A DNA stretch of 64,000 bases, taken from positions 1,178,001 through 1,242,000 of the forward strand of contig NZ_PSYW01000001.1 of the NCBI RefSeq assembly GCF_003383095.1, written 5' to 3'. Both the position numbers and the translations under genes were made by a program. The stretch comes from Haloferax sp. Atlit-12N. Its GTDB lineage: Archaea > Halobacteriota > Halobacteria > Halobacteriales > Haloferacaceae. Under the pieces are notes generated by a model. It saw only the letters and a program-made list of their open reading frames with translations, searched no databases and was not told the DNA's origin. Below are positions 21,934 through 52,636 of this stretch, in pieces (positions within the stretch are counted from its first letter, which is position 1; each line of letters starts with the position of its first letter).

Positions 21934-21935
21934 TT

Positions 21936-21944
21936 GGGTATATA
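21936..21944 (+). promoter_or_regulatory. candidate TATA box for the left-end operon
   Basis: GGTATATAAAC immediately follows the tRNA. It would give a transcript with a leader of about 30 nt before the GTG at 22000. Confidence 0.4.
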
Positions 21945-21999
21945 AACAAAGCGGCCTGTTTTGCCGCGGTTTTCCACCCGAACAGAGGGGGGTCTGCGC

Positions 22000-22476
22000 G
22001 TGAGCCTCGCACCATCGAAGCGTGCGGGCGAACGCGCCGAAGCGGACCAGATCCAGCGCGTCGACGGCTTCGAAGCCGCGCCGAAGAACGGAGACGACGG
22101 GCAAGAACTCCCGTACGACATCGTCTGCGTTCGCGCGGTCTGGCCCTCGCCGGACCTTCCTTTCGTCGGCGTTCTCGTCCTCGAACAGGGCTCCGAAGTC
22201 GAGTCCAAATCCTGCGCGGTCGTCATCAACGAGTCGCAGGATCGCGGTCGCTACTACCTTCGGAAGAAGCAGCACGAAGCGCTCGTCGAACTCGGAGCGT
22301 TCTATCTGTTCACCGTCCGCGACCCGAACACCGACGAGGTCATCGCTGCGAAAATCGTTCCCGCGACTTCGGTCACCGACCTCAACTTCTCATGGATCGA
22401 GGCGGAGGGGCGCGCGACCTTCGGACAGATCACCTGGACGCAGATCTTTGACCGCGAGGAGGTCGAGTCCCGATGA
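22000..22476 (+). CDS. left-end protein, possible nuclease-like fold
   Basis: The 158-residue protein starts with GTG (MSLAPSKRAGERAEADQIQR). Alternating strands and helices, with LPYDIVCVRAVW, VESKSCAVVINESQDRGRYY and an aromatic strand GAFYLFTVRDPNTDEV, are reminiscent of PD-(D/E)XK nuclease folds, but the catalytic set is not convincing. It is the first gene of a four-gene operon; its TGA overlaps the next ATG. Confidence 0.6.
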   Translation: MSLAPSKRAGERAEADQIQRVDGFEAAPKNGDDGQELPYDIVCVRAVWPSPDLPFVGVLVLEQGSEVESKSCAVVINESQDRGRYYLRKKQHEALVELGAFYLFTVRDPNTDEVIAAKIVPATSVTDLNFSWIEAEGRATFGQITWTQIFDREEVESR

Positions 22477-23030
22477 GCGTTCGCGGCACCTACTTCACCG
22501 CGCTCGCGAACGAGGATGTCGTTCCCAGCGACCGCGCGCGAGTCTTCGCTATCGTCCGCGACGTTCCCGAGTGGGCCGACGACCTCGTCGACCGCGCGCT
22601 CCCACACCTCGCACCGCCCGAGTCTCTTGAGCACGCGCGGGCTCGGGTCGAGGAGGCCGCCGATGCAGACGGCGTCGACAACGCGCTCGCAGTCTCGTGG
22701 CAGTCGACGGACTTCGAGACGCGCTTCCGGAGCTACCTCCGAACCACCGGACCTCGCGAAGTCCTCGCGACGGTTCAGTCCGACGCCGACGAGCGCCCCG
22801 TCCTGCTCGTCTCGTGGCGTTCCGACGACCGCTACGACCATCGCCGCATAGTCCTCGAAGAACTCCAACAGCGGACGCAGGACGGCCCCTGTGACGACGG
22901 ACGCCACGAGTGGAGTCGTGGGTCGGTCGTCGGGGTGCTCGTCTGTGACATCTGCGGCTACTCCTCGCAGTCCGTGGTCGACTGGTTCGACCAACCAGTT
23001 CGCGTCGCCTACGGAGGTGACCGCCGGTGA
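22473..23030 (+). CDS. protein with C-terminal zinc ribbon, unknown
   Basis: The 185-residue acidic protein begins MSVRGTYFTALANEDVVPSD. Its C-terminus has a Cys/His set (GPCDDGRHEWSRGSVVG, then VLVCDICGYSSQSVVDW) typical of a zinc ribbon. No catalytic motif is seen. The start overlaps the previous stop (ATGA) and its stop overlaps the next GTG (GTGA). Confidence 0.65.
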   Translation: MSVRGTYFTALANEDVVPSDRARVFAIVRDVPEWADDLVDRALPHLAPPESLEHARARVEEAADADGVDNALAVSWQSTDFETRFRSYLRTTGPREVLATVQSDADERPVLLVSWRSDDRYDHRRIVLEELQQRTQDGPCDDGRHEWSRGSVVGVLVCDICGYSSQSVVDWFDQPVRVAYGGDRR

Positions 23031-23266
23031 GCTTCACTCGACAGATTTGCGAGTGGGAGGAACGACCGTACACGAGCTACGATCGTCGCCGTGCAGTCGT
23101 TCAACACCGGGTCGTCTTAGAGGTCTACCGAGACGGGAACAGCGACATTCGCCACGAGGTCCGCTCAGACTACGAAGAAGCCAAAGAGTCTGCCGAGTGG
23201 TCGCTCTACGAAGCCTACGAGATTCGCGGTAGCCGTGTCGATTACGTCGGAGGTGACCGCCGGTGA
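23027..23266 (+). CDS. small charged protein, unknown
   Basis: The 79-residue protein (MSFTRQICEWEERPYTSYDR at its start) is rich in charged and aromatic residues and has no recognised domain. The GTG start is preceded by GGAGGTGA, and an identical 21-base block (23012-23032 and 23248-23268) spans the start of this gene and of the next one, so both upstream proteins end in GGDRR. Confidence 0.65.
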   Translation: MSFTRQICEWEERPYTSYDRRRAVVQHRVVLEVYRDGNSDIRHEVRSDYEEAKESAEWSLYEAYEIRGSRVDYVGGDRR

Positions 23267-25395
23267 GCGACGATACCGGCGAGGTCGTCGCGGAGTTCTC
23301 TGTCCTCGACGACGCGGACGTCGTCACATCGAGCGACGAGGACACCATCGCGTCCGCAGTTGACAACGGATACGAGCCCGGCTCGACCATCGACGACGAC
23401 CCCGAAGACGTCGAGTTCGAGATGCCCGAGTTCGTCGCGGCGTGTCGCTACTGCCAGACGAGCTTCGAGACCGAGGAAGCCGCGCTCGAACACGAGTGGA
23501 ACTGCGACCTGGAGCCGACTGGCGAGTGTCGCTTCTGTGGCGGTACCCACATCCGGAAGGACGTTCGCGAGGACCACTTCTACGCCTGCTCGGAAGCGGA
23601 GGCGCACGAGCGGAAGCTGAAACGCGGCTCCCGCGCTCGGACGATGCGCGGACAGGATTCGAAGACCGCCGTCTCGGGCCTTCGGAAGTTCCTCCTCCCG
23701 CAGCCGCACGAGTTCTCGGCGTACCTGAAGTGGGCCGAATCGCTGTCGACGTACTTCGGCCTCATCTCGCTGTACAAGATGCACGACTTCGAGGAGTACG
23801 GGAACCTCCGCGCCGGCATCGAGTTCGGCGGAGAGGAGTGGAACCTCGAATTCGGTTACGCCGACGATCCGAAAATTGCGGTTCCCGACGAAGATACCGA
23901 CCTCGGTCGGTGGGATTGGCGTCTCGAGGGCGATACTGTGCCCGAGTTCATGATACGACTCTATCCCGAGACGTATCCGTCGTTCCAAGAGGCGAAGGAC
24001 GACAACCGAAAGCGTGCGTACTTCCGCGTCCGTCCGCGCTGGCCCGGTGTGAAGTCGAAGAGCGGGAAGAACATCTCGAATCCGCACGACATCCTCGGCG
24101 TCGACGTCGAGACGCGAGGGAGCTACTTCGAGTTTGACGAGTATCCGAGTCTCCTGTTCGAGGCGCTGCGCGAGCTTCGCGAGCGCCAAGACGAGTTCGG
24201 TTGGAACTCGTTCACTGGAATCGACTACGACGCGCTCCATCCCGAAAAGGTACACAAGTCGTCGAACGTGACCGACGCCGAGCTGTACGTCCGCGCGAAG
24301 AAGGGCGAGACCGGTCGGGTGTTCGCGCTCGACGGGACGCTTCACCGCATCGCACTCATCCTCGGCGGCGAGCGCAGCGGCTATTCGAAGACTGTTCGCG
24401 ACGACCGCGTCTGCGAAGGCTGGTATCACACGTCCACGGTCTGCGCGATGCGCGCGGCCGAGATCGTCGGTGGTCACGAACTCCCGAAGGAGTTCAAGCA
24501 CTACCACGTGAAGAACCCGGACGCTGTCGCTGGAACACCGCTGGAGAACCCGAAGATCGGTGTTTCCTATCAGAACTCGCTGTACGACGACACCCTCCGG
24601 TTCCACGACGTCGACCAGCTCCACAAGGAACTCGACGAGGCGCTGCTGAACGTTCTGAACTGGTCGGACCTGCCGGTGACGCCTGACCACCAGATGTACG
24701 TCGCGGACGACTACTTCGCCGTCGAGGGCGAGGCGCGAATGGCGAAGGTCGCCGACAATCCGCTCCCGCGTATCGCTCAGCAGCAGGAGGACGAGATTCG
24801 GATGTTCGCCACCGCGGGGAACCTCGTGGAGACGGACGTCGCGATCACCGAGGAGCTGGTGACTGACGGCGGCCACATCTCGCCGGCCGACCTCGCCGAG
24901 CGGATCGGCGTCCACATCGATACCGTCTATCGCGCGCTGAAGCGACTCGGTGATCTCGTGATTCACGATTACGGCAGCGTCGAGCTGGCCTCGAAACACA
25001 TCGCGAACGGGATCGTCGAACACATCGAGTCCGCGCGCCGGACTGTCGAAGCCACGATCGAGGAGGCTACCGACGATATCATCCGCGCCGACACTTACGG
25101 CCACGAGAACGACCCGTGGTCGCGATGGCTTCGGAACTACGTCGTCGATCGGAAGGATGGCGAGTACCGCGAGCGCCTCGAACTCGACGATCAACCTGAC
25201 CGCAACGACATCCGTCGGATCATCCGCTCGGGTGCGATGACCTGGGCGGAGGTCACCGGCAACGACATCGAAGACTTCGCTCGTGAGTTCGAGGTCGAGG
25301 CCCGTGCCCGCAGCTCGGGTCGTCGGTTCGAATACCTCCTCGGTGATCTGCTCGGTCTCGTCGGCTCGAAGAACGTCGTCACGCTCGCCAGATAG
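23263..25395 (+). CDS. large zinc-finger and winged-helix protein of the element
   Basis: The 710-residue protein has two N-terminal zinc-finger-like segments (CRYCQTSFETEEAALEHEWN and CRFCGGTHIRKDVREDHFYA). A large central region without a known motif follows, then a winged helix-turn-helix at about 540-575 (ISPADLAERIGVHIDTVYRA) and an acidic helical C-terminus. It looks like a DNA-binding replication, partition or recombination protein and is the largest gene of the left arm. Large proteins of this general build occur in other haloarchaeal elements as I recall; the role is unknown. Confidence 0.75.
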   Translation: MSDDTGEVVAEFSVLDDADVVTSSDEDTIASAVDNGYEPGSTIDDDPEDVEFEMPEFVAACRYCQTSFETEEAALEHEWNCDLEPTGECRFCGGTHIRKDVREDHFYACSEAEAHERKLKRGSRARTMRGQDSKTAVSGLRKFLLPQPHEFSAYLKWAESLSTYFGLISLYKMHDFEEYGNLRAGIEFGGEEWNLEFGYADDPKIAVPDEDTDLGRWDWRLEGDTVPEFMIRLYPETYPSFQEAKDDNRKRAYFRVRPRWPGVKSKSGKNISNPHDILGVDVETRGSYFEFDEYPSLLFEALRELRERQDEFGWNSFTGIDYDALHPEKVHKSSNVTDAELYVRAKKGETGRVFALDGTLHRIALILGGERSGYSKTVRDDRVCEGWYHTSTVCAMRAAEIVGGHELPKEFKHYHVKNPDAVAGTPLENPKIGVSYQNSLYDDTLRFHDVDQLHKELDEALLNVLNWSDLPVTPDHQMYVADDYFAVEGEARMAKVADNPLPRIAQQQEDEIRMFATAGNLVETDVAITEELVTDGGHISPADLAERIGVHIDTVYRALKRLGDLVIHDYGSVELASKHIANGIVEHIESARRTVEATIEEATDDIIRADTYGHENDPWSRWLRNYVVDRKDGEYRERLELDDQPDRNDIRRIIRSGAMTWAEVTGNDIEDFAREFEVEARARSSGRRFEYLLGDLLGLVGSKNVVTLAR

Positions 25396-25695
25396 CTGAC
25401 GACTCCTGAGTGGCAACGCTGTTCTCTGACGTTAGTCCCGGCAAGAATGTCTGTGTTTTCAGGACGTTAGCGACTGCATTTTTCTTGGCGCCGTCTCGCC
25501 TCGACCAGCGCCGCAACCGCCGTCACTCCGAATCCGGGGGGACCCCCCTGATTCTCCGTTAGATGTGTGGCTAAAGAGCCACACTTCAAGATTACCGGAG
25601 CCTTCGCTGCGCTCAGGCTCCAGATGAAACAGATGAAACGGGGGTCGCCGCGCCTACTCGGCGCGGCTTGCCCGCGCGAAAAATTTAGACGTCGA
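25396..25695. other. 300-bp non-coding gap with several inverted repeats
   Basis: No gene is seen between the convergent 710-residue gene and the second recombinase. The gap holds a G6-A-C6 palindrome (25536-25548), an 8-bp hairpin GTGTGGCT/AGCCACAC with a 4-base loop (25565-25584), and a 7-bp hairpin GGAGCCT/AGGCTCC (25597-25621). A further CGCCGCGC/GCGCGGC pairing lies near 25650-25670. They may be terminators, a recombination site or an origin. Confidence 0.6.
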
Positions 25696-26401
25696 TTACT
25701 CCAAAGCGAGGTGAGCCATCGCCCTGGAGGTGACGTGGTCCGGCACGGGTCCGAGGTAGTTTCGACGGAACGTCTCGCGCCCGGAATCGGTCATCGCCCA
25801 CCCACCCCACGCCATCGTCAACTCCTCAGCGATAGGGACACCCTCGAACGCGAGTGAGTAGAACGTATCCGTCGCCCACGTTCGTCGAAGGTCGTGCATC
25901 CCGAGGTCGTGCCACCGGTCGTCGTCGAGGTCGTCGGCCAACTGTTCTCGCGCTTCGGCAATCCAATCGCGAAGCGAGCGAGTCGAGACATCGACCACCG
26001 GTTCGTCAGCTCGCAATCGCGCCGCGGACTTCAGGTACTTCACGCGCTCGCGGAGACTCCGCGAGACCGGCGTGTCCCGAGCGCCGCTCTTGCCGTCGGG
26101 GACACTCAGTCGCCACTTCCCCTCATCGTCGAGGCGTTCGAAGTGTCGCGGCTCCACGTTTCGGACTTCGTCGCTGCGGAGACCGTGGAGTGCGAGGTCC
26201 AGAGCGATACGCCGCCGTGGGTATTCGTCCTCGACGAGCGAGAGGAGTTTCTCTTGTTCCGCGCGTGAGAGCCACAGTCGCTTTCCTGACTTCGATGGAT
26301 ATGGGCGTACCTGCATGGTTCCAGTTCTGGTAGTTATCTCTGTTTCCCGGAACCTTAGCTAGTTCGGTCGGGCTGATCTACTCGGAAAAGACGTCGATTA
26401 C
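25687..26401. repeat. 13-bp direct repeats flanking the second recombinase gene
   Basis: AGACGTCGATTAC occurs exactly at 25687-25699 and 26389-26401. On the minus strand each copy starts inside a stop codon (TAATCGACGTCT), at the end of the recombinase gene and at the end of the last micro-gene. Confidence 0.7.
25696..26316 (-). CDS. tyrosine recombinase, catalytic domain only
   Basis: The 206-residue protein has the full catalytic set of tyrosine recombinases: Arg47 in LALHGLRSDEVRNV, Lys76 in PDGKSGARD, His141-x-x-Arg144 in MHDLRRTWATD, a His/Trp position near W170 and Tyr187 in FRRNYLGPVP. It lacks the usual N-terminal SAM-like core-binding domain (whole integrases are about 300-400 residues). 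It may be a XerC-like resolvase or inversion enzyme. A 13-bp direct repeat flanks the gene. Confidence 0.8.
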   Translation of the reverse strand: MQVRPYPSKSGKRLWLSRAEQEKLLSLVEDEYPRRRIALDLALHGLRSDEVRNVEPRHFERLDDEGKWRLSVPDGKSGARDTPVSRSLRERVKYLKSAARLRADEPVVDVSTRSLRDWIAEAREQLADDLDDDRWHDLGMHDLRRTWATDTFYSLAFEGVPIAEELTMAWGGWAMTDSGRETFRRNYLGPVPDHVTSRAMAHLALE

Positions 26402-26466
26402 GCGTCGTCGAGGAGCATTTGGTTACGAGAATAGTCGGTTCTCGGAAGCGGTCGCACCGAACTCAT
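26398..26466 (-). CDS. 22-residue micro-protein, last of the micro-gene operon
   Basis: The frame begins MSSVRPLPRTDYSRNQ and ends LLDDA. It starts in an ATGA overlap with the stop of the preceding membrane micro-gene. It is too short to judge by composition. The overlap is the only support. Confidence 0.35.
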   Translation of the reverse strand: MSSVRPLPRTDYSRNQMLLDDA

Positions 26467-26600
26467 AAGCGGACCTCCCAGTACCCGAACCGCTCGACGA
26501 ACACCATGTAGTAAATCACGAGCAGAATTATCGCAACGAAGACAAGCGCGAAGAGTCCCCATGGCAACGAACTGAACACCGACGCCGAGTCGAGCGTCAT
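26463..26600 (-). CDS. 45-residue single-span membrane protein
   Basis: The frame reads MTLDSASVFSSLPWG, then one strong membrane helix (LFALVFVAIILLVIYYMVF) and a short charged tail VERFGYWEVRL. The start overlaps the preceding stop (ATGA). Confidence 0.6.
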   Translation of the reverse strand: MTLDSASVFSSLPWGLFALVFVAIILLVIYYMVFVERFGYWEVRL

Positions 26601-26752
26601 TCAAACAACTCCTCAGTCAGAACTTCGTCGTAGTCACAGAACTCGTAGACACAGGTTGCCCTGACTGCTGTCTCTTCTCTGTCGAGCTCTTCATAGTCGA
26701 ACCTGTGCCCGAACAATTTGTGCTGAACTACACCGAGGAGTCCATCAGACAC
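26597..26752 (-). CDS. 51-residue acidic soluble micro-protein
   Basis: The frame starts with GTG (MSDGLLGVVQHKLFGHRFDY) and continues with EELDREETAVRATCVYEFCD and an acidic tail. It has two Cys and is the only clearly soluble longer member of the operon. It overlaps both neighbours by a few bases. Confidence 0.5.
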   Translation of the reverse strand: MSDGLLGVVQHKLFGHRFDYEELDREETAVRATCVYEFCDYDEVLTEELFE

Positions 26753-26933
26753 TGTGCATCACCACGCTGGCAACACCAACCCAAAGAAACGTGCCTAAAA
26801 TGGCGCAAGCCCACTGTCTCCAGTCCGTCGCGCCAGTTGGCCCGACCATTTCTCCCGCGAAGTGTAGCGGGCCGAGTAATACCATGAAGACCCATCCCAC
26901 GGCATGGTAGACACGGGATTGGAGCTTAGACAT
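26745..26933 (-). CDS. 62-residue two-span membrane protein
   Basis: The frame begins MSKLQSRVYHAVGWVFMVLL and has two hydrophobic helices separated by a short polar turn with TGATDWRQW. The start overlaps the preceding gene by eight bases (ATGTCTAA). Confidence 0.6.
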   Translation of the reverse strand: MSKLQSRVYHAVGWVFMVLLGPLHFAGEMVGPTGATDWRQWACAILGTFLWVGVASVVMHSV

Positions 26934-27129
26934 GGCCAGGGAACCCTCCTGCGACGCCCCAGCCGACGAGAGCGATTGTCGAACCGACAAGTAGCGTACC
27001 CGTGTACCACTGCGGCACTCCGAGGTCGACGAAAAGACTCGCGAACGCGACACCGACTGAGAACAGGCACGTGAAGCCGATAACAATCCCAAGGTGCCAG
27101 AAGTCGATTCGCTGGTTTTCCTCAGTCAA
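26926..27129 (-). CDS. 67-residue two-span membrane protein
   Basis: TTG is the likely start (MTEENQRIDFWHLGIVIGFT), because an in-frame stop lies just upstream and the only other candidate is CTG. Two hydrophobic helices flank a loop with DLGVPQWYTG. The start overlaps the upstream stop as TTGACTGA. Confidence 0.55.
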   Translation of the reverse strand: MTEENQRIDFWHLGIVIGFTCLFSVGVAFASLFVDLGVPQWYTGTLLVGSTIALVGWGVAGGFPGHV

Positions 27130-27307
27130 TTTCAGTCACCTCGACACGTGGGTGCAGGAAGTAAATACCCCAAACTGCGAGAAATAGCACACCAGACCCA
27201 CCTGCGACCTCGATTGAGATTAGCTTAGCGACCGCCACCAACACGAGAACGGTCACAAGCATCGCAACACCCAGTTGATTGCTTAGGTCAGAGGAATTAG
27301 AGTTCAT
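27122..27307 (-). CDS. 61-residue two-span membrane protein
   Basis: The protein reads MNSNSSDLSNQLGVAMLVTV, then a second hydrophobic helix GVLFLAVWGIYFL and tail HPRVEVTEID. ATG 27307 is preferred over GTG 27316 because GAGGTG lies six bases upstream. Confidence 0.6.
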   Translation of the reverse strand: MNSNSSDLSNQLGVAMLVTVLVLVAVAKLISIEVAGGSGVLFLAVWGIYFLHPRVEVTEID

Positions 27308-27407
27308 CTTCGACACCTCTCGCGTCTGCTTTGAGGATACAGATCATGCACGCACCGTCGCCGTCGACGTGGGGGCAATCCACAGTACCCTCTTGCTCGT
27401 TAGACAT
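27297..27407 (-). CDS. 36-residue putative zinc micro-protein
   Basis: The frame starts MSNEQEGTVDCPHVDGDGAC and continues MICILKADARGVEDEL. Three Cys and one His (DCPH, ACMIC) could form one zinc site. It overlaps both neighbours. Confidence 0.55.
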   Translation of the reverse strand: MSNEQEGTVDCPHVDGDGACMICILKADARGVEDEL

Positions 27408-27681
27408 CCGGCTCATCCTCCATTAGCTCGTAGAACCGACACGGGACCGTGTAGCCGGCGACGAACGCGACAAGAGCAATCGAGATGCCTGCCATGTAGC
27501 CGAATCTCGCGGCTCTCAGCCAGAACACCGGTGCGTCCGTCAGGAACATCAGGCTCGAAACCGACACCAGCAACAAGCCTGCATAAGAGAAGCCGATGCA
27601 GTACCCTCGACATCCCTCGGCGTACGGCATCTGGACCAACAGTTCTCCGTCGTCGTCTTCGATGACTTTAGCCTCGCTCAT
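27400..27681 (-). CDS. 93-residue two-span membrane protein
   Basis: A soluble N-terminus (MSEAKVIEDDDGELLVQMPY) with two Cys (EGCRGYC) precedes two hydrophobic helices (about 27-48 and 60-80) and a short acidic tail. The start overlaps the stop of the next upstream micro-gene (ATGA). Confidence 0.65.
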   Translation of the reverse strand: MSEAKVIEDDDGELLVQMPYAEGCRGYCIGFSYAGLLLVSVSSLMFLTDAPVFWLRAARFGYMAGISIALVAFVAGYTVPCRFYELMEDEPDV

Positions 27682-27803
27682 TTGAACATCACCCAGAACT
27701 CGTTGAGGACGATGGTTCCAAAGAACAGAATCATCAGTAGAATCAGGAAGATTGGGAACGACGTCGCCTGCGCGCGTGTAGACTCATCGAACTCCTCGCT
27801 CAA
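27678..27803 (-). CDS. 41-residue single-span membrane protein
   Basis: A likely TTG start gives MSEEFDESTRAQATSFP and one membrane helix (IFLILLMILFFGTIVLNEFW). It overlaps the upstream gene by about 20 bases. The start is uncertain; the frame is supported by the strong membrane helix and the ATGA coupling downstream. Confidence 0.45.
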   Translation of the reverse strand: MSEEFDESTRAQATSFPIFLILLMILFFGTIVLNEFWVMFK

Positions 27804-27972
27804 CTCTGACTTTGACGAAAGCGAGGACGAGCGCCATCGCGACCAGGGCGACCACGAGGTGGACGTCTTCCGACAAACCCAGCCAGTCGGCGACGACGTC
27901 GACGACAAGGACGACCGCGACGATGTTGACGAACGTCTCGATGACCGGGACGGTCGGGTCGGCATCAGTCAT
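27784..27972 (-). CDS. 62-residue two-span membrane protein
   Basis: The frame starts MTDADPTVPVIETFVNIVAV; helices are at about 10-28 and 38-54, with a basic tail KVRVERGVR. The start overlaps the upstream stop by eight bases (ATGACTGA). Confidence 0.6.
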   Translation of the reverse strand: MTDADPTVPVIETFVNIVAVVLVVDVVADWLGLSEDVHLVVALVAMALVLAFVKVRVERGVR

Positions 27973-28201
27973 CGCCCTCCTCGATACCAACATTGACGAG
28001 ATCGTCGAACGCGTAGGTTGCAGCTCCACTCGAGGAGACCAGCGTGACGACGAATCCGACGATAGCGAATGTGCCCGTCACAGTCGGTGCGATGCCGGAT
28101 TGATAGCCGGTGTAGCACAGTACGATCACGCAGACAGACACGTACATCGTCACTTGGTACTGCCAACGCTCGAACCGTAGTGAGAGACTCGACGAACTCA
28201 T
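27965..28201 (-). CDS. 78-residue two-span membrane protein, first of the micro-gene operon
   Basis: The ATG at 28201 gives MSSSSLSLRFERWQYQVTMY. Two hydrophobic helices follow, and the protein ends in the acidic FDDLVNVGIEEGDD. It heads eleven overlapping leftward micro-genes. A TATA box and a GC palindrome lie upstream. Confidence 0.65.
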   Translation of the reverse strand: MSSSSLSLRFERWQYQVTMYVSVCVIVLCYTGYQSGIAPTVTGTFAIVGFVVTLVSSSGAATYAFDDLVNVGIEEGDD

Positions 28202-28256
28202 CGAGAACCACCACCAGAACCCGAGAAAATCCCGAAATCGAATCTGACCGGGGGTC

Positions 28257-28345: not shown

Positions 28346-29194
28346 TCAGGCTTCCTCCGCGAATCGCTCTAAGTCGACGTCCGGTCTGTTTTCCAGAATC
28401 AATTTCACCTTCTTCGCATTGCGCATCGAAGCACCGTAGTGAACCTCGATGAGTTCAGACGCGATGTAGGGCTGCTTGTTGCCGCCGTGGATCGACACCA
28501 CGCGGCCGATCCCCTCGTCGACGATCTCTTGGGCGAGTTCGCGCGGGTCGAGGTCGAGTTCTGACTCGTCCTCGTCGTCGTCAGGGTCGATTCGCTCATT
28601 CTTTTTCTTCTTGTCACGGCGTTTGAACACCTCCCAGAGTTCCGTGCCTTCGAGCGATGGGAAGGAGTCTCGCATATCCGGCTCCGGCCACTCGCCGGTC
28701 TCCCATTTTTCGTCGAGTGACTCACGGGAGTACCCACGGAGTTTCCCCCGCTGGTTTCGCGGGATTTTGAGTGCCGCGAGTGCTCGACGTTTTGCGAGCG
28801 TTGTCGGGATATCATCGTACCCCTGATACCCCAACATGATGAAATACTCGCTCGTCCGAACGTCGAGGAGATCTTTTTCGGCATCCTTCTGTTCGCTATC
28901 CATTGCATCGCGCTTGTAGAGTGCACGTGCCGCGTCCATGACCGGGATTGCAGACCGTTCTGGCGCGGTTGCCATGGTGCGCTTGAACTCGTCTCTCTCA
29001 CCCCAGACGACGCGGTCCAAGACTGACTCGGGCGTCGGGTCGAGGCCGCGAACATCTTGCCAGAGCCACGTCAGTTGGTTCATCAGCGTCGACTTCCCGT
29101 CCCCTTCCTCTGCGATGACTAGGATGATTGCGTCGTACTGTTTCTCGATTCGCCGTTCGTGGATTTTCTCAACCCATCGCTGAATTTTCTCCAT
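28346..29194 (-). CDS. P-loop NTPase of the element
   Basis: The 282-residue protein has Walker A AEEGDGKS at residues 28-35, after the strand DAIILVI. A hydrophobic strand (YFIMLGYQGYDD) may carry the Walker B or sensor function. A Lys-rich linker (KRRDKKKKNERID) leads to an acidic C-terminal helical domain. The ATG at 29194 is preferred over GTG 29203 because of the upstream GAGGTGA. It is the only recognisable nucleotide-driven enzyme near the structural cluster and could power genome packaging or transfer. This role is inference. Confidence 0.72.
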   Translation of the reverse strand: MEKIQRWVEKIHERRIEKQYDAIILVIAEEGDGKSTLMNQLTWLWQDVRGLDPTPESVLDRVVWGERDEFKRTMATAPERSAIPVMDAARALYKRDAMDSEQKDAEKDLLDVRTSEYFIMLGYQGYDDIPTTLAKRRALAALKIPRNQRGKLRGYSRESLDEKWETGEWPEPDMRDSFPSLEGTELWEVFKRRDKKKKNERIDPDDDEDESELDLDPRELAQEIVDEGIGRVVSIHGGNKQPYIASELIEVHYGASMRNAKKVKLILENRPDVDLERFAEEA

Positions 29195-29204
29195 CTTCGT
29201 CACC

Positions 29205-29944: not shown

Positions 29945-29969
29945 GTCCAAGAAATTCTAGCCAACCGAC

Positions 29970-31119: not shown

Positions 31120-31122
31120 CCC

Positions 31123-44153: not shown

Positions 44154-44215
44154 CCCGCTTCACTTCCACTTCGGTTTGCGACTGTTCAAATAATCGAACC
44201 TCGAATCGGTGAGAC

Positions 44216-45220: not shown

Positions 45221-45225
45221 CGCGG

Positions 45226-45357: not shown

Positions 45358-45371
45358 CCTCCCTCCAAATC

Positions 45372-45379
45372 GTTTATAC
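45372..45379 (+). promoter_or_regulatory. TATA box of the 45401 gene
   Basis: TTTATACC is centred about 26 nt before the ATG at 45401, predicting a leaderless transcript. Confidence 0.55.
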
Positions 45380-45400
45380 CACATCCTCATCGGCTCACGT

Positions 45401-45673: not shown

Positions 45674-45675
45674 CA

Positions 45676-45954
45676 CTACGGTTCCGGCAGCTCGTCTTCG
45701 CCGACGTCGCCCGCGAGGAACTCTCTGCCGAGGTCAGTCAACTCATAGACACCTTCCTCGTTAGAAAACAGGCCAGCACGCTCCATCATCTTCATTCGAG
45801 CGTTGACGTAGTTCTGACCGTAGTCGATGTTGTATGCCACTACCTTTGCTGTCGCTCCAATATCATAGGATTCGTAGAACAACAAGATCTCGTAGTCAAC
45901 TCCGTCTTTGAACCACGAGATACGCTCAACCATTTCCTTGAGACGCAAACTCAT
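45676..45954 (-). CDS. winged-helix regulator, candidate repressor of the element
   Basis: The 92-residue protein from the ATG at 45954 (MSLRLKEMVERISWFKDGVD) has a winged helix-turn-helix layout (GATAKVVAYNIDYGQNYVNA; RMKMMERAGLFSNEEGVYEL). Length and position, facing a divergent promoter with palindromic operators, fit a viral-type master repressor. An upstream in-frame GTG near 45999 is less likely because it would lie inside the operator. Confidence 0.65.
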   Translation of the reverse strand: MSLRLKEMVERISWFKDGVDYEILLFYESYDIGATAKVVAYNIDYGQNYVNARMKMMERAGLFSNEEGVYELTDLGREFLAGDVGEDELPEP

Positions 45955-45979
45955 TACTATTCTAAAATAACAGCGTTGC

Positions 45980-46041
45980 GAAATAAGTTTTGTAGTCATG
46001 GCTACAATGAGAATGTAGCTATAGCTACAAAGTTTTATATT
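45980..46041. promoter_or_regulatory. divergent control region with two 16-bp palindromes
   Basis: TGTAGTCATGGCTACA (45991-46006) and TGTAGCTATAGCTACA (46014-46029, perfect) are inverted repeats 23 bp apart centre to centre. The first abuts the TATA-like box of the leftward regulator (about 45981-45989) and the second abuts the TATA box TTTTATATT (46033-46041) of the rightward operon. A half-site GCTACA recurs at 46143-46148. Confidence 0.7.
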
Positions 46042-46148
46042 GGATGGCTATCATTGTCGGTAGTGACGACTCTCTCCGTGGCAGACATGTCGCGGAAAAC
46101 GCCCGGGCTCCTGTTCCATCAGGACCCGAGCACGGGGCGTCAGCTACA

Positions 46149-46343
46149 ATGACGACCAAATCAGCACTCTCGCGGGCACGGAATAAATCCCGCGACACGC
46201 CCGACGAAGCGTCAACTAACTGCCCCGCGTGCGGAACGCCCATCGAGGGCTTCGCCGCGAGGGGCCCCCTTAGCCGCACGGTCGAACCGTGCGGTTGCGT
46301 CCTACCGAACGTCCGCGCGACCGACATCGCGCAGGAGAACTAA
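46149..46343 (+). CDS. 64-residue zinc-ribbon protein, first of the rightward operon
   Basis: The protein starts MTTKSALSRARNKSRDTPDE and has Cys pairs in STNCPACGTPIEG and EPCGCVL, so it probably binds one zinc. ATG 46149 is preferred to an in-frame ATG at 46044, which is too close to the TATA box. It opens the long right-arm operon. Confidence 0.55.
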   Translation: MTTKSALSRARNKSRDTPDEASTNCPACGTPIEGFAARGPLSRTVEPCGCVLPNVRATDIAQEN

Positions 46344-46347
46344 GATC

Positions 46348-46989
46348 ATGAGTTACGACTCCGACAACCTCGACCGCATCGTCAACGTCCTGCGAGACGA
46401 ACTCGACGTTGGCGACTGGAGCGTCTACACCGCCCGTCGAATTTCGAACGCCACCGGCTGCACTTCGAACGAAGTCGGCTACTGGCTTTCGCGGATCAAC
46501 GGGTCGCGCGACGACTACGAACCGCTCAGCATCGACGGGCTGGAAATTTCGAAGTGGAAAACCGGCGCATCGACGCCCGTCCGCTGGAAAGTCGAGCGCG
46601 TCCCGGATAGTACCGACGCGACGTCCGACTCCAAGATCATCGCCGACGGAGGCGTCCGCTGGCTCGATCTCTCGGAAGTCGAGCAGCAGATCGTGAAAGC
46701 GGTCATCGAGATCGAGAACGAAGTCGGAGACGATCCGTACGGCGTCGCGATAAAACACATTCTCGAAGAGCGCTACGGTCGCGAGATCAGCAACGCAACC
46801 GTCTACCCGAACCTCGACGACCTCGTCGAGATGGGCGTTATCGAGAAAGGCGAGATCGATCGCCGGACGAACGCGTATCACTCGACGCCCCTCGCACGCT
46901 CGATGGTCGCCGGCGAAGCCGAGCACATGGCCTCGCTGGCGGGGCTCGAACTCGCCGAAGCCGTCGCCGACGGTGGTGAGACCCAATGA
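46348..46989 (+). CDS. winged-helix protein with PadR-like C-terminal domain
   Basis: The 213-residue protein has an N-terminal helix-turn-helix-like part (ARRISNATGCTSNEVGYWLS) and a PadR-like winged helix (about 128-195; AIKHILEERYGREISNATVY then PNLDDLVEMGVIEKGEID). It is probably a transcription regulator of the element. Its stop overlaps the next start (ATGA). Confidence 0.75.
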   Translation: MSYDSDNLDRIVNVLRDELDVGDWSVYTARRISNATGCTSNEVGYWLSRINGSRDDYEPLSIDGLEISKWKTGASTPVRWKVERVPDSTDATSDSKIIADGGVRWLDLSEVEQQIVKAVIEIENEVGDDPYGVAIKHILEERYGREISNATVYPNLDDLVEMGVIEKGEIDRRTNAYHSTPLARSMVAGEAEHMASLAGLELAEAVADGGETQ

Positions 46990-48182
46990 GTTGCGGAATC
47001 TGTGGCTCGCCGTGTCAGGGGCGGCTCTGCAACGAGTGCGAGCTGATCCAACGCTTCGAGGACGAGCACGACTGGCTCGTCGAGGACCTCGAAGACGAAC
47101 TCGATGATGAGGACGACGTCGACCGCGGCGACGGCGTCGCGACCGACGGCGGAAACGCTGAAGCCTCGCTCGGCGCGTTCGAGACCGTCGCCGAAGCGCT
47201 CGGCATCTCGCTGGACACGCTTTACCGGCGGCTCGCGCACGAGACGCCGTCGAACCCGCGCGAGTGGGAACCGCCACTCCCCGAAGCCCAAGAGCACGCC
47301 GGTGCCGAGGAGATGCACGTCAACCTCAACATCGAGCCGACCACCGCGCAAGGAGGAGTGAGTGCAGAACTTTCCGACCGAGTCAACCAGCTCTACGTCG
47401 AGGCGACGACTGAGAACGTCATCTTCGAGGTCGCCGAAGAGTTCCAGAGCGTTTCGTTCTCGACGACGTTCACGCCCGACCAAGCCAAAGCGATCGGCTG
47501 CGCGCTGATCGCGGGCTCGAAACGAGCCGCTGACGCGAACTCCGGCGTCATCGTCCGGAAGTACAACCTCGCGGGCATCGACCGTGGCGAGGGTATCGAG
47601 ACTGACGGGAGTGGGGATGAGAACCCACTCGACGATCTCCTCGTCGACGCGCAAGAGCAGAAAGAACAGTTCAACGAAGCCCGAGAACGGTTGCAGTCGG
47701 TTCGGGAGAAACTGAAGCTGTTCGTCCAGCAGCTCCGCGACGACGGGACACTCAGCGAGGACGATGCAGAGGAGATCTACGGACTCATCTCTGACGGGAA
47801 GTACGGAGATGCCCGAGGAGCGATTTCAGAAGCGCTCTCCAAGAAGGAACTGAAATTCGATGACGATGAGAAGGACCTCTTCGCGCGGCACTTCTCTGAA
47901 TCGTGGGAGGAGCACGTCGAGGCTGTCGAACAGGTTCGGACAGCACTTCTCGACTTCTCCCGCGACCTGAACCGAGAGGACCTCGTCGATTACCTCTACG
48001 GCAAACACTCGGGGTTGAACAAAGGAGACATCCGCGCCGTCTTCGACGCGTTCGATGAAGTCGAGCGGACTGGGCTCGGCGTCAACCGGATGGCGCGCGC
48101 CCTCACATCGTACAACCGCGACCTCAACATCCAACCGACCGAGGAGGTTCTGAAGGCCATCAAAGAGGAGGCCGAAAGATGA
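46986..48182 (+). CDS. zinc finger and coiled-coil DNA-binding protein, unknown
   Basis: The 398-residue protein opens with a Cys cluster (MSCGICGSPCQGRLCNEC) and has a helix-turn-helix-like stretch (AEALGISLDTLYRRLAHETP). A coiled-coil region lies at about 215-250 and a long acidic helical C-terminus follows. It may organise replication or regulate the element. Unknown family. Its stop overlaps the next start (ATGA). Confidence 0.68.
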   Translation: MSCGICGSPCQGRLCNECELIQRFEDEHDWLVEDLEDELDDEDDVDRGDGVATDGGNAEASLGAFETVAEALGISLDTLYRRLAHETPSNPREWEPPLPEAQEHAGAEEMHVNLNIEPTTAQGGVSAELSDRVNQLYVEATTENVIFEVAEEFQSVSFSTTFTPDQAKAIGCALIAGSKRAADANSGVIVRKYNLAGIDRGEGIETDGSGDENPLDDLLVDAQEQKEQFNEARERLQSVREKLKLFVQQLRDDGTLSEDDAEEIYGLISDGKYGDARGAISEALSKKELKFDDDEKDLFARHFSESWEEHVEAVEQVRTALLDFSRDLNREDLVDYLYGKHSGLNKGDIRAVFDAFDEVERTGLGVNRMARALTSYNRDLNIQPTEEVLKAIKEEAER

Positions 48183-48409
48183 CACCCGCGATTAAGTCCC
48201 TCGCTGGCGAGACGGAAGTCCAGTTCCAGTGTGGCGTCGCTGCGCTGACCGACGAGTGCAACCACGAGCCCGAGGTCATCGAGCTCGACGAGCCGGCGTA
48301 CATCGACGCCGAAGGGATGGTCTACCTTCCTGGTCGGCCGCTCGACTGTCCCGAGTGCGGCAACCCGCACGACTTCCGCTTCAACGGCGTCGGGGTGATG
48401 TTCAGATGA
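48179..48409 (+). CDS. 76-residue zinc-ribbon protein
   Basis: The protein has Cys/His residues in QCGVAALTDECNHEPE and PLDCPECGNPHDF, so one zinc site is likely. It ends with an ATGA overlap to the next gene. Confidence 0.6.
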   Translation: MTPAIKSLAGETEVQFQCGVAALTDECNHEPEVIELDEPAYIDAEGMVYLPGRPLDCPECGNPHDFRFNGVGVMFR

Positions 48410-48594
48410 GCACCGGAAACACGGTGTCCGGCTCGTTCGACGACGACCGCAAGCAGTCGCTCGCGCTCGTCGAGGGCGACGACGTCTGCGCGGCGGTCTT
48501 CATCGGTCCCGATGCGACTGACCGCGAGGTCGCCGACCTCCTGGAAGACATCCGCGCCGAGGTCTCGCAACTCACTGGGGGTGATCTGCGATGA
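48406..48594 (+). CDS. 62-residue small acidic protein
   Basis: The protein starts MSTGNTVSGSFDDDRKQSLA and has a short beta strand (VCAAVFIGPDATDREVADLL) and an amphipathic end. No motif is visible. It overlaps both neighbours. The next gene is preceded by GGGGGTGATC. Confidence 0.55.
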   Translation: MSTGNTVSGSFDDDRKQSLALVEGDDVCAAVFIGPDATDREVADLLEDIRAEVSQLTGGDLR

Positions 48595-50144
48595 GCGATT
48601 CAACGCACGAGGATCGCTCATCGGGTCCAGTCACGGCTGTTGATCTGTTCTGTGGCGCGGGCGGTCTATCGACCGGCCTCGCACTCGCCTGCGAAGAACT
48701 CGACCGCGAGGTCGAACTGACGGCGGTGAACCACTGGTCAAAGGCCATCGAATCGCACAAGCAGAACCACCCGTGGGCGACCCACCTGAACGCGAAGGTC
48801 GAAGAACTCCACCCGCCGGATGTCGCACCCGGCGACGGCCCGGTCGACCTGCTCATCGCCGCGCCCGAGTGTACGCACTTCAGCATCGCTCGGGGCGGCA
48901 AGCCCGTCAACGAACAGTCGCGGGCGAGTCCGTGGCACGTCGTGGACTGGCTGGAAAAGCTCGACGTACAGAACTTCCTCGTCGAGAACGTCCCCGAACT
49001 CAAGTCGTGGGGCCCGGTCGACGACAACGGGTCGCCGAGTCGCAACGGCGACATCTTCGAAGCGTGGGTCAACACGCTCCACGCGCTCGGCTACTCGGTC
49101 GACTGGCGAGTGCTGAACGCCGCGGACTACGGCGACGCGACCTCGCGACGGCGGCTGTTCGTCGTCGGCCGGAAGGGCAAGCGCGCGGAGTTCCCCGCGC
49201 CGACCCACTCGGAGAACGGCGTCGACGGGACCGACGAGTGGCGGCCGGCATCGGAGGTCATCGACTGGTCCGACCGCGGCGAGTCCATCTGGGAGCGGTC
49301 GCGACCGCTCGTGAACAACACGATGCAACGCATCGCCGAAGGCATCCGCCGGCACTGCCATGACGACCTCGCACCCTTCGCGGACGTTATCGACGACCTC
49401 GAAAAGTCCGAGGTCAGCGCGATGCAAGCGGACATCGTCGACGCCGGCGACGTGCCGGCAGTTGTCGAACAGCGGTGTGAGCCGTTCCTTGTCAAATACT
49501 ACGGCACGTCAACGGCGAAGCCGGTGAGTGAGCCGATGGACACCATCACGGCGAACGGCGGCAAGTACGCGCTTTGCACGCCCTACGTCCTCGGTCAGCA
49601 CGGCGGGTCGGTCGCCCGCGACGTTGACGAGCGCCCGCTTCCGACCATCGCGACGCGCGGCGCTATCGGCCTCTACCAGCCCGAAGCGTTCGTCCTGCCG
49701 CGGAACATGGTTCACGGTGGCCTCCACTCCAACGGCACCTACACGCCCGAGGAGCGCCCGCTGCACACGGTCACGGCCAACAACCACGACGGTCACGTGG
49801 TGACGCCGTACCTCATCGAATACTACGGCAACGGCCGGGCGCAGTCGCTCGACGACCCGCTTCCGACCGTGACGACGAAAGGCCGCTTCGCCTTGGTCGT
49901 CCCCGAACTCTACCCGCTCGGCCTCGACATCCGCTTCCGGATGCTCCAGCCGCGCGAACTCGCCGCGGCGATGGGCTTCCCCGAGGAGTACGAGCTGGTC
50001 GGCAACAAGACCGAGACGACCAAGCAAATCGGAAACGCCGTCCCGGTCAACCTCGCGAAGAACCTCGTGAACCAACTCCTCACGGGAGACGCGCCGTCGC
50101 TCCACACGTTCGCCCAAGAACAGGGGGTCGAAGCCGATGACTGA
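48591..50144 (+). CDS. DNA (cytosine-5) methyltransferase
   Basis: The 517-residue protein has motif I DLFCGAGGLSTGLALA, the catalytic cysteine C94 in APECTHFSIARGG (a PEC variant of the usual PCQ), motif VI ENVPE, motif VIII-like DATSRRRLFVVGRKGKRAEF, and motifs IX-X at the end (QIGNAVPVNLAKNLVNQLL). The target-recognition region holds several repeats around TIT/TVT. No restriction nuclease is adjacent, so it is probably a solitary protective or regulatory methylase. Confidence 0.87.
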   Translation: MSDSTHEDRSSGPVTAVDLFCGAGGLSTGLALACEELDREVELTAVNHWSKAIESHKQNHPWATHLNAKVEELHPPDVAPGDGPVDLLIAAPECTHFSIARGGKPVNEQSRASPWHVVDWLEKLDVQNFLVENVPELKSWGPVDDNGSPSRNGDIFEAWVNTLHALGYSVDWRVLNAADYGDATSRRRLFVVGRKGKRAEFPAPTHSENGVDGTDEWRPASEVIDWSDRGESIWERSRPLVNNTMQRIAEGIRRHCHDDLAPFADVIDDLEKSEVSAMQADIVDAGDVPAVVEQRCEPFLVKYYGTSTAKPVSEPMDTITANGGKYALCTPYVLGQHGGSVARDVDERPLPTIATRGAIGLYQPEAFVLPRNMVHGGLHSNGTYTPEERPLHTVTANNHDGHVVTPYLIEYYGNGRAQSLDDPLPTVTTKGRFALVVPELYPLGLDIRFRMLQPRELAAAMGFPEEYELVGNKTETTKQIGNAVPVNLAKNLVNQLLTGDAPSLHTFAQEQGVEADD

Positions 50145-50700
50145 ACACGTTCGGTCGTACCGACAGCGCTGCGAAGACTGTGGCCGCGTCGTGTCGATCG
50201 CGCCGTACTGCTCAAGCTGCGGAGCGTCTCTTCGCGATGACGAGCTGACCAAACAAGCAACCGACGAGGCGTCTTCAGTCCTGTTCGATCGCTGGCTGTG
50301 CAAGGCCGCTGAGAACATTGAGGAATGGGGTGTCCAAGACGAAGCGACGCTCCTGCTCGCGATTCAGGAGGAACTCGGAGAGCTGACGCAGGCGCATCTC
50401 GAAGCGAAGCACGAAGACGGTCGTGACAGTCGCGTCGACGAAGAGTTGGACGACCTCGGAGCGCTGCTTCTTCAGCTCCACGAGTCGCGGCAGAGAGGCG
50501 AACCCGAACGCGAAATCAAGCAAGCGTACAGGCTCGCTTGCTTGCTTACGGACGCGGAGAACCTCATGTCCGGTGAGGCTGACGAACTCGCGTGCCGTCG
50601 ACCGCATCCCGACGAGCATCTCTATCATGTCGAGGAGGGGCTGAGGTTCCACGCGAACAGTATCCGAGAGAGCCACGAGGAGGTGATCTCAGATGTCTGA
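50137..50700 (+). CDS. zinc ribbon plus MazG-like protein
   Basis: The 187-residue protein has an N-terminal zinc ribbon (CEDCGRVVSIAPYCSSCG). A four-helix MazG/NTP-pyrophosphatase-like core follows (LLLAIQEELGELTQAHLEAK; DEELDDLGALLLQLHE). MazG-type enzymes hydrolyse non-canonical or alarmone nucleotides; mobile elements may use them to alter host nucleotide pools. The start overlaps the methylase stop by eight bases. Confidence 0.75.
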   Translation: MTEHVRSYRQRCEDCGRVVSIAPYCSSCGASLRDDELTKQATDEASSVLFDRWLCKAAENIEEWGVQDEATLLLAIQEELGELTQAHLEAKHEDGRDSRVDEELDDLGALLLQLHESRQRGEPEREIKQAYRLACLLTDAENLMSGEADELACRRPHPDEHLYHVEEGLRFHANSIRESHEEVISDV

Positions 50701-50902
50701 ATCTGCATCCGCAACTGAGAGCCTGCCGTTTTGGTGTCCGTGGTGCAAGGGCGTCATCACTCTCGACGGCGAACCCGCAACGTCCGAAGTGGACGCTTAC
50801 TGGCACGCCTACGACCATCAAGACAAAGGACCATACGCGGTTCTCGTCGCGGAAGAATTCACGCGAGTCAACACGACAGAAACGGAGCAACACCATGTCT
50901 GA
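50693..50902 (+). CDS. 69-residue zinc-motif protein
   Basis: The protein starts MSESASATESLPFWCPWCKG and has one CPWC pair and His residues near the middle (YWHAYDHQDKG) and end. An ideal Shine-Dalgarno (GGAGGTGATC) lies seven bases before the ATG. Confidence 0.6.
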   Translation: MSESASATESLPFWCPWCKGVITLDGEPATSEVDAYWHAYDHQDKGPYAVLVAEEFTRVNTTETEQHHV

Positions 50903-51017
50903 ACACGTCCTCATCCCGCTTGTGACGTACAACGGTGGCGTAACCGAGTACCGTTGTCAAAAGTGCGGGAGGACTGGTATGGACGGAATTAGAGGCAAGT
51001 GCCGGGGTGAACGATGA
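50895..51017 (+). CDS. 40-residue zinc-ribbon micro-protein
   Basis: The protein begins MSEHVLIPLVTYNGGVTEYR and continues CQKCGRTGMDGIRGKCRGER, with a CxxC pair and a third Cys. It overlaps both neighbours. Confidence 0.55.
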   Translation: MSEHVLIPLVTYNGGVTEYRCQKCGRTGMDGIRGKCRGER

Positions 51018-51199
51018 CCGACGCTAAGTCCGAGGCACGCACGGAGATTTCGGACGACCTTCGCCGTGCAGTCGCCACTGGCGTCGTCCATGACCCACAC
51101 GGCCACGTCGCCACACAGATCGTCGTCGAGGACGGCTACCCGACGCCGTACTGTGACACGTGCGCCGAGTTCTACACCGATAGCGAGGAAGAGCAATGA
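51014..51199 (+). CDS. 61-residue small acidic Cys protein
   Basis: The protein starts MTDAKSEARTEISDDLRRAV and has a His-rich centre (GVVHDPHGHVATQ) and a CDTC pair. One zinc site is likely. It overlaps both neighbours. Confidence 0.58.
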   Translation: MTDAKSEARTEISDDLRRAVATGVVHDPHGHVATQIVVEDGYPTPYCDTCAEFYTDSEEEQ

Positions 51200-51504
51200 C
51201 GGGAAGAGGCAACCGGAGTCGTCGAGTCCCGACGTGCCGAGAGTGCGGCTCGGCGTTCATCGTCCTGGACCCCGACGACGTCCACACGACAACCTGCGGT
51301 GCGTGCCGCGTGAAGCTCGAGGCACGTCTTCAGAGACTCGGCGAACTCGACCACGTCATGGGGGTGATCCGGTCGGTTCGTGCGTCCGAAGACGAGTTCC
51401 GCGCGCAGGTCGCTTCGAACTTCGACGTTGAGACGGACGACTTCGAGGTCGAGTCGGAGATCGCCGATGGTCACATCGTCCACCGCGCGAGGTGGTCGCC
51501 GTGA
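51196..51504 (+). CDS. 102-residue zinc-ribbon protein upstream of integrase
   Basis: Two CxxC pairs (CRECGSAFIVLDPDDVHTTT, then CGACRVKLEARLQ) form a zinc ribbon, followed by a helical and acidic C-terminus. Its stop overlaps the integrase GTG (GTGA), so the two are coupled; it may regulate excision. This last point is inference. Confidence 0.62.
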   Translation: MTGRGNRSRRVPTCRECGSAFIVLDPDDVHTTTCGACRVKLEARLQRLGELDHVMGVIRSVRASEDEFRAQVASNFDVETDDFEVESEIADGHIVHRARWSP

Positions 51505-52526
51505 CTGGTCCACGAGACCTCTCGCCGCGTGACGCCTGGAAGCGATACGTCGACCGCCGCCGGACGGAGCTCACCGACGGCTCTGCTGACTCCTACCACT
51601 ACCGACTCAAGCTCTTTGGTCACTGGTGCGAGGACCGCGGCATCGAGACCGTCTCCGAGCTGAACGGATGGCTTCTCGACGAGTACCGAGCCCATCGCGC
51701 CGGGGAGGGCATCGCGTCGACGACGCTCCATAACGAGATGGAGACGCTTCGCGGGCTCGTCGAGTACCTCGAAAATATCGGTGCCGTCGATGGAGGTCTC
51801 GCCGAGAAGGTTGATGTTCCGCGCGTCCCCGAGGACGAGAGATCACGGGAGACGAAGCTCGCGACGGACGACGCACTCGAGATTCTCAGATTCCATCGGT
51901 CGAATGACGAGACCTACGGGTCTCTTTTTCATGCTTTCCTCGAAGTCGCGTGGCACACCGGGGCTCGTCTTGGTGCGCTTCGTGGCCTCGATCTCCGCGA
52001 CTTTGATCGCGATGTCGGCTATGTCGAGTTCGTCCACCGTCCTGAGACTGGGACGCCGCTGAAGAACAAGCAGAAGGGCGAGCGCATGGTGAAGTTGCTT
52101 CCCGAGGTCGTCGATGTTCTCGACGCCTATATCGCGGGTGATCGGCGGTCGAATCACGACGAGCATGGTCGCCAACCGCTTTTCACGTCGACTCGGGGTC
52201 GCCCCGGTCGGAACACTGTTCGCGTGTGGTCCTACCGGGCGACGATGCCGTGCGTCCATGGTCCGTGTCCGCATGGTCACGACCCCGACGACTGCGAGTT
52301 TCGGTCGCACACGCACGCGAGCAAGTGCCCGTCGTCGAGGGCTCCGCACCACATCCGGACGGGGGCGATCACGTGGCATCAGGATCGGGGTATCCCGAAG
52401 GAGGTGACCGCGGAGCGCGTCAACGCCTCGCAGCGAGTCATCGACCGCCACTACGACGTCGCCACTAAACTCGAAGAGATGGAGCTGCGGAGAGGCCCGC
52501 ACATGGATAAATTGAGCCTCGACTGA
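51501..52526 (+). CDS. int: tyrosine integrase with zinc-like insert
   Basis: The 341-residue protein has an N-terminal core-binding domain (DAWKRYVDRRRTELTDGSAD) and the catalytic set R156 (TGARLGALRG), H283/H284-I-R286 (PHHIRTGAITWHQ) and Y318 (DRHYDVATK). A Cys/His-rich insert before the HxxR box (CVHGPCPHGHDPDDCEFRSH) is likely to bind zinc. The gene lies about 90 bases before attR at the tRNA-Pro repeat, so it is the element integrase. Confidence 0.88.
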   Translation: MTGPRDLSPRDAWKRYVDRRRTELTDGSADSYHYRLKLFGHWCEDRGIETVSELNGWLLDEYRAHRAGEGIASTTLHNEMETLRGLVEYLENIGAVDGGLAEKVDVPRVPEDERSRETKLATDDALEILRFHRSNDETYGSLFHAFLEVAWHTGARLGALRGLDLRDFDRDVGYVEFVHRPETGTPLKNKQKGERMVKLLPEVVDVLDAYIAGDRRSNHDEHGRQPLFTSTRGRPGRNTVRVWSYRATMPCVHGPCPHGHDPDDCEFRSHTHASKCPSSRAPHHIRTGAITWHQDRGIPKEVTAERVNASQRVIDRHYDVATKLEEMELRRGPHMDKLSLD

Positions 52527-52613
52527 AGTGAAACAATGTCAACGTTTGCACCCCATAGAGAGTGTCAGGAATCGTTAGTGGGTTCGTCGGTTTCAGGAGT
52601 CCGTTATCGTCAA

Positions 52614-52636
52614 CGGTTCGAAACCGGGCGGTCCCA
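52614..52636 (+). other. attR: second copy of the tRNA-Pro 3' end
   Basis: CGGTTCGAAACCGGGCGGTC plus CCA differs at two positions from the tRNA 3' end at 21911-21933. It marks the right boundary of the element. Confidence 0.85.

Follow-up and report, generated by a model that had tools for sequence, protein, structure and literature searches.

A putative temperate spindle-shaped virus of the LSV-48N group, with a candidate exchanged virion module, integrated in a Haloferax chromosome

The element and its LSV-48N-type backbone

LSV-48N (PP151251; 24,864 bp) is a temperate Haloferax virus with lemon-shaped particles 65-90 nm long (PMC12714723, EMBO Rep 2025). The supernatant contained its genome as a 24-kb circle; the virus was reported to exist integrated as well as circular, to cause no lysis and to have 13 virion proteins, and none of its open reading frames (ORFs) was said to resemble a known capsid protein (PMC12714723). 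It is named among the lemon-shaped viruses that have a replication protein of the Rep-Arvir family, which are rolling-circle initiators; in the pleolipovirus SNJ2, no replication operon exists until excision has brought the integrase end and the rep end together (PMC13107129). Here we analyze a 64,000-nucleotide (nt) stretch of the Haloferax sp. Atlit-12N genome (contig NZ_PSYW01000001.1, positions 1,178,001 to 1,242,000; hereafter the window), which contains an inserted element of 30,703 bp (positions 21934-52636). A preliminary description of this element had proposed a membrane particle built without a capsid and placed it near the pleolipoviruses and the pR1SE plasmid-vesicle system. Our assessment is that it very likely belongs to the LSV-48N group, as a temperate virus of spindle (lemon) shape whose virion module has been exchanged.

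The integrated replicating element of the preliminary description is borne out by its tRNA-Pro site, its pair of attachment (att) copies and the existence of empty sites. The two att copies (21911-21933 and 52614-52636) are 23 nt long, with 21 of 23 positions identical and 13 exact. In three relatives of the host from the same genus set (G284, G391 and G379), the tRNA-Pro gene is followed directly by the flank that is found here after 52636. The guanine-plus-cytosine (GC) content is about 0.65-0.68 outside the element and 0.48-0.60 across most of the insert. A region near 52776 that resembles the left end of the element was considered as the scar of an older integration and rejected, as it matches in an empty-site genome and is native flank.

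At the DNA level, blocks of 92-94% identity to LSV-48N cover the left end (21911-26448) and blocks of 75-95% identity the right end (44158-52636), with at most one 68-bp patch of similarity between them. The proteins of this backbone are 60-97% identical to those of LSV-48N (Rep 97%, the two recombinases 95.6% and 94.5%, Orc1/Cdc6 80%, regulators 60-93%), and when the ends of the element are joined in silico, 135 of 143 positions across attP are identical to the LSV-48N circle. The two thus share the integration site, attP, both recombinases, Rep-Arvir, Orc1/Cdc6, the regulators and an overall layout in which the ATPase gene diverges from the virion operon. They differ in size (24.9 kb for LSV-48N, 30.7 kb here), in the gene at the capsid position (166 amino acids (aa) against 88 aa here) and in the C5 methylase, sulfatase, lectin-like and GH28-like genes that the element adds. 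Judged by these comparisons, the element appears to be a member of the LSV-48N group by its backbone, and not a full member. Several of 224 spacers of clustered regularly interspaced short palindromic repeats (CRISPR) from six genomes of the genus match LSV-48N, and 3 of the 224 match the element backbone imperfectly (29-36 nt with 3-5 mismatches); a reversed control gave no match to either. This suggests independently that the element is mobile.

Of the genes in the preliminary description, Pfam confirms the integrase and Orc1 and identifies PadR and winged helix-turn-helix (wHTH) regulators and a C5 methylase, and the second recombinase, for which no Pfam match was found, is 95.6% identical to an annotated LSV-48N integrase. 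Absent from that description were the replication protein encoded at 23263-25395 and the near identity to LSV-48N. This Rep, whose closest counterpart is LSV-48N CDS0026, carries a K-H-Y motif at residues 412-414 that aligns with betapleolipovirus HGPV-1 ORF14 and matches the catalytic K-H-Y of RepSNJ2. A hairpin downstream of rep is a candidate origin of replication; LSV-48N and five related loci have near-identical hairpins, similarly spaced from the end of rep. As in SNJ2, the right-end integrase and the left-end rep genes both point right. Within the left backbone, otherwise 92-94% identical, the ORF at 23027-23266 encodes 79 aa at the position where LSV-48N has an annotated DNA methyltransferase (CDS0027), which points to a local gene exchange.

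The predicted capsid gene and the possible origin of the virion block

The evidence for a capsid protein comes from the 88-aa product of 30085-30351, which matches PHROG 11172 (phrog_11172) with E=4.6e-7. Because SSV1 VP1 matches phrog_11172 at 1.9e-73, this group can be equated with the SSV VP1 family; as a second control, the two-helix protein His1 gp21, which we take to be the major capsid protein of His1, reached only 0.029. When a profile of the protein and four haloarchaeal relatives was searched against the PDB, the best match was SSV19 VP1 (7xdi_A, E=1.4e-6), with the next match at 0.41. In the reverse search, a profile of SSV1 VP1/VP3 ranked 30085-30351 first and its neighbor 30373-30804 third of the 865 stop-to-stop segments in the window. 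Since two hydrophobic helices could match through hydropathy alone, residues were permuted within blocks of eight so as to preserve the hydropathy profile, and none of 2000 such shuffles attained the real score in either direction (best shuffle against real, 15.1 against 15.8 bits and 23.4 against 27.9 bits). The score is nevertheless partly hydropathy and the first of these margins is thin, so that the capsid case is carried by the PDB E-value and by synteny. The Pfam VP1_VP3 family gave only E=0.17. Taken together, the profile matches identify the protein as a predicted homolog of the SSV VP1 capsid protein. The preliminary description had seen no capsid, portal, terminase or tail protein. 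These matches to SSV19 VP1 and to the SSV VP1 PHROG contradict it as regards the capsid, and they are the clear match of a cluster protein to a capsid family that the description had itself named as refuting it. Such a capsid is hardly recognizable by inspection, since capsid proteins of this kind are small and hydrophobic. The proposed particle of small membrane proteins stands. Likewise, its reading that tailed-virus morphogenesis genes are missing holds: no PHROG or Pfam match above noise to a portal, terminase or HK97-type capsid was found in the virion block, the PHROG matches to a terminase small subunit (E=0.27) and a tail chaperone (E=0.14) being at noise level.

The gene downstream of the capsid candidate matches the window capsid profile (E=2.3e-6) and, in its immunoglobulin (Ig)-like middle, phrog_807 (E=4e-7); it looks like a VP3-like paralog with an inserted beta domain. 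Its homolog in LSV-48N is CDS0019. Position would point to CDS0020, which is 166 aa long with two hydrophobic stretches in its C-terminal part, as the capsid protein of LSV-48N, a placement that no sequence match supports. The P-loop NTPase recognized earlier proved to be related to His1 gp16 (E=5e-7) and to LSV-48N CDS0023 (E=1e-6) in hhalign comparisons. Among the phage records, the 676-aa protein found a single match, CDS0012 of LSV-48N (E=7e-24); apart from this protein, only part of the 887-aa protein, the Ig-like protein and the ATPase of the virion block match LSV-48N.

The closest relatives of the virion block were located by searching 392 genomes of the order with the capsid protein; five of them, the element's own included, have it at E<=1e-10. 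In the other four (G265, which is Halomicrobium urmianum, G289, G080 and G031) the capsid protein is 43-68% identical, and the proteins encoded between 28346 and about 40963 reappear in unchanged order, again with a divergent ATPase side. The ATPase is 44-50% identical in three of the four and not detectable in G289 within the stretch examined. Of the two small genes beside it, 29205-29666 is kept in G265, G080 and G031 and 29666-29944 in G265 only, whereas the 676-aa spike has counterparts in each of the four and also on three circular plasmids. While most virion genes thus share the order of the element, the integration and replication genes of these relatives are distant or different (second integrase 41-44% identical where present, Rep 25-29%). 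No relative was found in the viral contigs searched with the capsid protein, the capsid alignment and the ATPase alignment, and none was confirmed in the named genomes searched with the two alignments, although relatives do exist in the other genome set.

The changeover between the two types of sequence lies near 26448 and 44158, giving a virion block of about 26.4-44.2 kb. In the same genus, G192 has an LSV-48N-type backbone with LSV-48N-type virion genes in a provirus at tRNA-Pro, whereas the window combines an LSV-48N-type backbone with another virion type, whose relatives found here sit in other families of the order. The simplest reading of these comparisons would be that the whole virion module was replaced, and the lower GC of the virion block fits an outside origin; an ancestral hybrid with later loss is a possible alternative. 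On balance we favor, with some reserve, a natural whole-virion swap, in which an LSV-48N-type replicon was kept nearly unchanged and acquired a complete spindle-virus module whose donor was a virus belonging to a different haloarchaeal family. If this is true, replicon and particle can be separated in these viruses, and their exchange as blocks is testable in Haloferax, an archaeon with genetics. A capsid gene recognizable as SSV VP1 type in a replicon of the LSV-48N kind would also provide a sequence link between haloarchaeal lemon-shaped viruses and fuselloviruses, tying the LSV-48N-type haloviruses to the spindle-shaped viruses of hot springs.

Based on these gene assignments, the life cycle might run as follows. 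The integrase would excise the element as a 30.7-kb circle, and circularization would place the integrase (51492-52526) and then the rep genes (22000-25395) in one co-directional array, like that of SNJ2. At the hairpin at 25530, Rep-Arvir would start rolling-circle replication; a membrane-protein shell would be made of the VP1-type protein and the VP3-like product of the next gene, and the divergent ATPase would power packaging or assembly. The 676-aa spike and the lectin-like and hydrolase-like proteins would bind the host surface, and particles would exit without lysis, as those of LSV-48N do.

Comparison with other systems and alternative explanations

With SSV1 and SSV19 (Fuselloviridae) the element shares the VP1-type capsid, two capsid-like proteins in tandem and a circular integrating genome, but its replication proteins differ and its genome is much larger. 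The fusellovirus trait of splitting the integrase gene upon integration is not seen either; the integrase is intact inside the element and att lies in the tRNA. With His1 (Halspiviridae) it shares an ATPase homologous by profile, the divergence of this ATPase from a two-helix capsid gene and a large membrane-anchored protein further downstream. However, His1 is linear, 14.5 kb long and has its own DNA polymerase, in contrast to an integrated element with Rep-Arvir and Orc1.

Several points weigh against a spindle-shaped virus. The case is built on sequence, and the VP1 match depends on a hydrophobic hairpin of 88 aa. The structural model of the capsid candidate is a helical hairpin of mediocre quality (mean predicted local distance difference test score, pLDDT, 68), and Foldseek found no significant match to it in the PDB and viral libraries, which is to be expected for an 88-residue helical hairpin. 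For the 676-aa protein, neither the PDB profile search nor the fold search matched SSV19 VP4; its architecture fits a VP4-like end protein, and its low-confidence model returned generic beta-sandwich matches only. Finally, none of the 224 CRISPR spacers matches the virion block.

It is conceivable, if unlikely, that the element is a defective provirus or satellite which retains the virion block but has lost excision or particle assembly. The assembly gives no direct sign of activity, the element lies inside one chromosomal contig and two cargo genes have been added, all of which would suit such a fate. But the element ORFs used here contain no internal stops, the att sites are complete and the module order is intact, and the H. 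urmianum relative with the same module type has a chromosomal copy as well as a circular record holding several copies.

A large pleolipovirus-like element producing pleomorphic vesicle-like virions, a reading close to the placement of the preliminary description, now seems highly improbable. The many small membrane proteins (a predicted membrane segment was found in 21 element proteins, in line with the roughly 20 membrane or secreted proteins counted earlier) agree with it, and so does the DUF7845 Rep held in common with betapleolipovirus HGPV-1 ORF14 (E=8.5e-54), which may be why this link looked plausible. Yet Rep is the only protein convincingly similar to those of HRPV-1, His2 and HGPV-1, whose spike, membrane protein and ATPase genes, the core block of the family, had no convincing match; the Rep family also occurs in lemon-shaped viruses, LSV-48N among them (PMC13107129), LSV-48N is the closest relative, and the element encodes a capsid protein of spindle-virus type. 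A plasmid of the pR1SE type, spreading in membrane vesicles that it encodes itself, is scarcely credible: it would explain the membrane proteins, the replication genes and the lack of tailed-virus genes, but a Pfam scan of the large proteins of the virion block and backbone did not reveal the core S8 serine peptidase of pR1SE (ORF7), and the gene set is better accounted for by the capsid homology and the LSV-48N kinship.

Other genes of the element and related loci

The features of the element are listed in Table 1. The 887-aa protein is probably internal or structural. Among the surface proteins, the LamG-like protein is a candidate host-attachment protein and the 616-aa GH28-like protein a candidate attachment protein or depolymerase, and it is plausible that these two and the 676-aa spike are host-attachment or glycan-processing parts. 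Two genes, the sulfatase-like gene and the C5 methylase, are added relative to LSV-48N. The latter is an insertion at a point across which LSV-48N runs contiguous, and it may protect the virus from host restriction.

Table 1. Predicted features of the element and its integration site (positions in the window)
Feature	Position	Strand	Basis or remark
Host tRNA-Pro(TGG)	21861-21933	+	ARAGORN; 3' end 21911-21933 is attL
Left-end rep operon	22000-25395	+	Three small genes (22000-22476, 22473-23030, 23027-23266) and the rep gene
Rep-Arvir (DUF7845) rolling-circle replication protein	23263-25395	+	PF25227, E=1.1e-92
DNA hairpin GAATCCGGGGGGACCCCCCTGATTC, candidate replication origin	25530-25554	.	Fold; ~135 nt after the rep gene
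Second tyrosine recombinase	25696-26316	-	95.6% identical to LSV-48N CDS0025 'integrase'; HDLRRTW motif
About eight very small, mostly membrane proteins	26463-28202	-	ORFs, hydropathy
P-loop ATPase, candidate DNA-packaging or assembly ATPase	28346-29203	-	Divergent from the capsid gene
Two small conserved module proteins	29205-29950	-	Synteny; upstream of the ATPase, same direction
Major capsid protein candidate, SSV VP1 family	30085-30351	+	88 aa, two-helix hairpin
Second capsid-like (VP3-like) protein	30373-30804	+	Ig-like beta insert between two membrane helices
Conserved virion-module genes (101, 207, 68, 183, 60, 202 aa)	30814-33271	+	Mostly same order in G265, G289, G080, G031
887-aa low-complexity protein	33271-35934	+	N-terminal part common to LSV-48N CDS0015; C-terminal part common to G265
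Two small membrane proteins (35934-36125, 36355-36546)	35934-36546	+	Conserved position
676-aa spike or end-filament protein	36543-38573	+	Signal, beta-rich ectodomain, three C-terminal membrane helices
Three membrane proteins of the virion module	38573-39865	+	
Lectin-like (LamG) membrane-anchored surface protein	39980-40963	+	PF13385, E=3.4e-4, below curated cut-off; relative in G289
616-aa secreted protein, GH28 polysaccharide-hydrolase-like	40963-42813	+	PF00295, E=3.4e-5, above cut-off; twin-arginine-like N-terminus read from sequence
Sulfatase-superfamily cargo gene	42823-43719	-	PF00884, E=1.4e-6; GC 0.48, lowest of the element
Orc1/Cdc6 replication protein	44216-45220	+	Cdc6_lid, E=1.3e-11; 80% identical to LSV-48N CDS0006
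Backbone and regulator genes	45401-48409	+	wHTH 45676-45999 (-); PadR-like 46348-46989; Pfam, LSV-48N comparison
C5-cytosine DNA methylase	48591-50144	+	PF00145, E=8.9e-39
Tyrosine integrase, right end	51492-52526	+	Pfam; 94.5% identical to LSV-48N CDS0030
attR, copy of the tRNA-Pro 3' end	52614-52636	+	att alignment

Related loci were seen in several other records. The H. urmianum plasmid unnamed3 (NZ_CP084093, 75,827 bp) holds repeated copies of a relative: two full-length units of about 23.8 kb and two of 14,077 bp in which the capsid-ATPase part is missing, with a further copy in the chromosome. This resembles circular virus DNA present in multiple copies, possibly including a shortened form; alternatively, the record could be a concatemer from assembly. 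Three circular 'plasmids', NC_007428 (Natronomonas pharaonis PL23), NZ_CP084478 (Natrinema sp. DC36) and NZ_CP090374 (Halobaculum pCBA1158-3), encode relatives of the 676-aa spike with E-values from 5e-13 to 1e-28, and PL23 additionally encodes Rep and an integrase. These three are probably spindle-shaped virus genomes, and several haloarchaeal 'plasmids' with the same spike and replication genes are probably viruses.

The genome of the window contains a second element (contig 1, 538501-576000), whose Rep gene is 79% identical with an in-frame TGA and which includes fragments 97-98% identical to LSV-48N CDS0004 and CDS0005; it is apparently a decayed or different provirus. The virion module occurs twice in G289 (contig 1, 446001-527000); the copies are separated by 41 kb, point the same way and encode the same proteins with equal identities, possibly as a tandem provirus.

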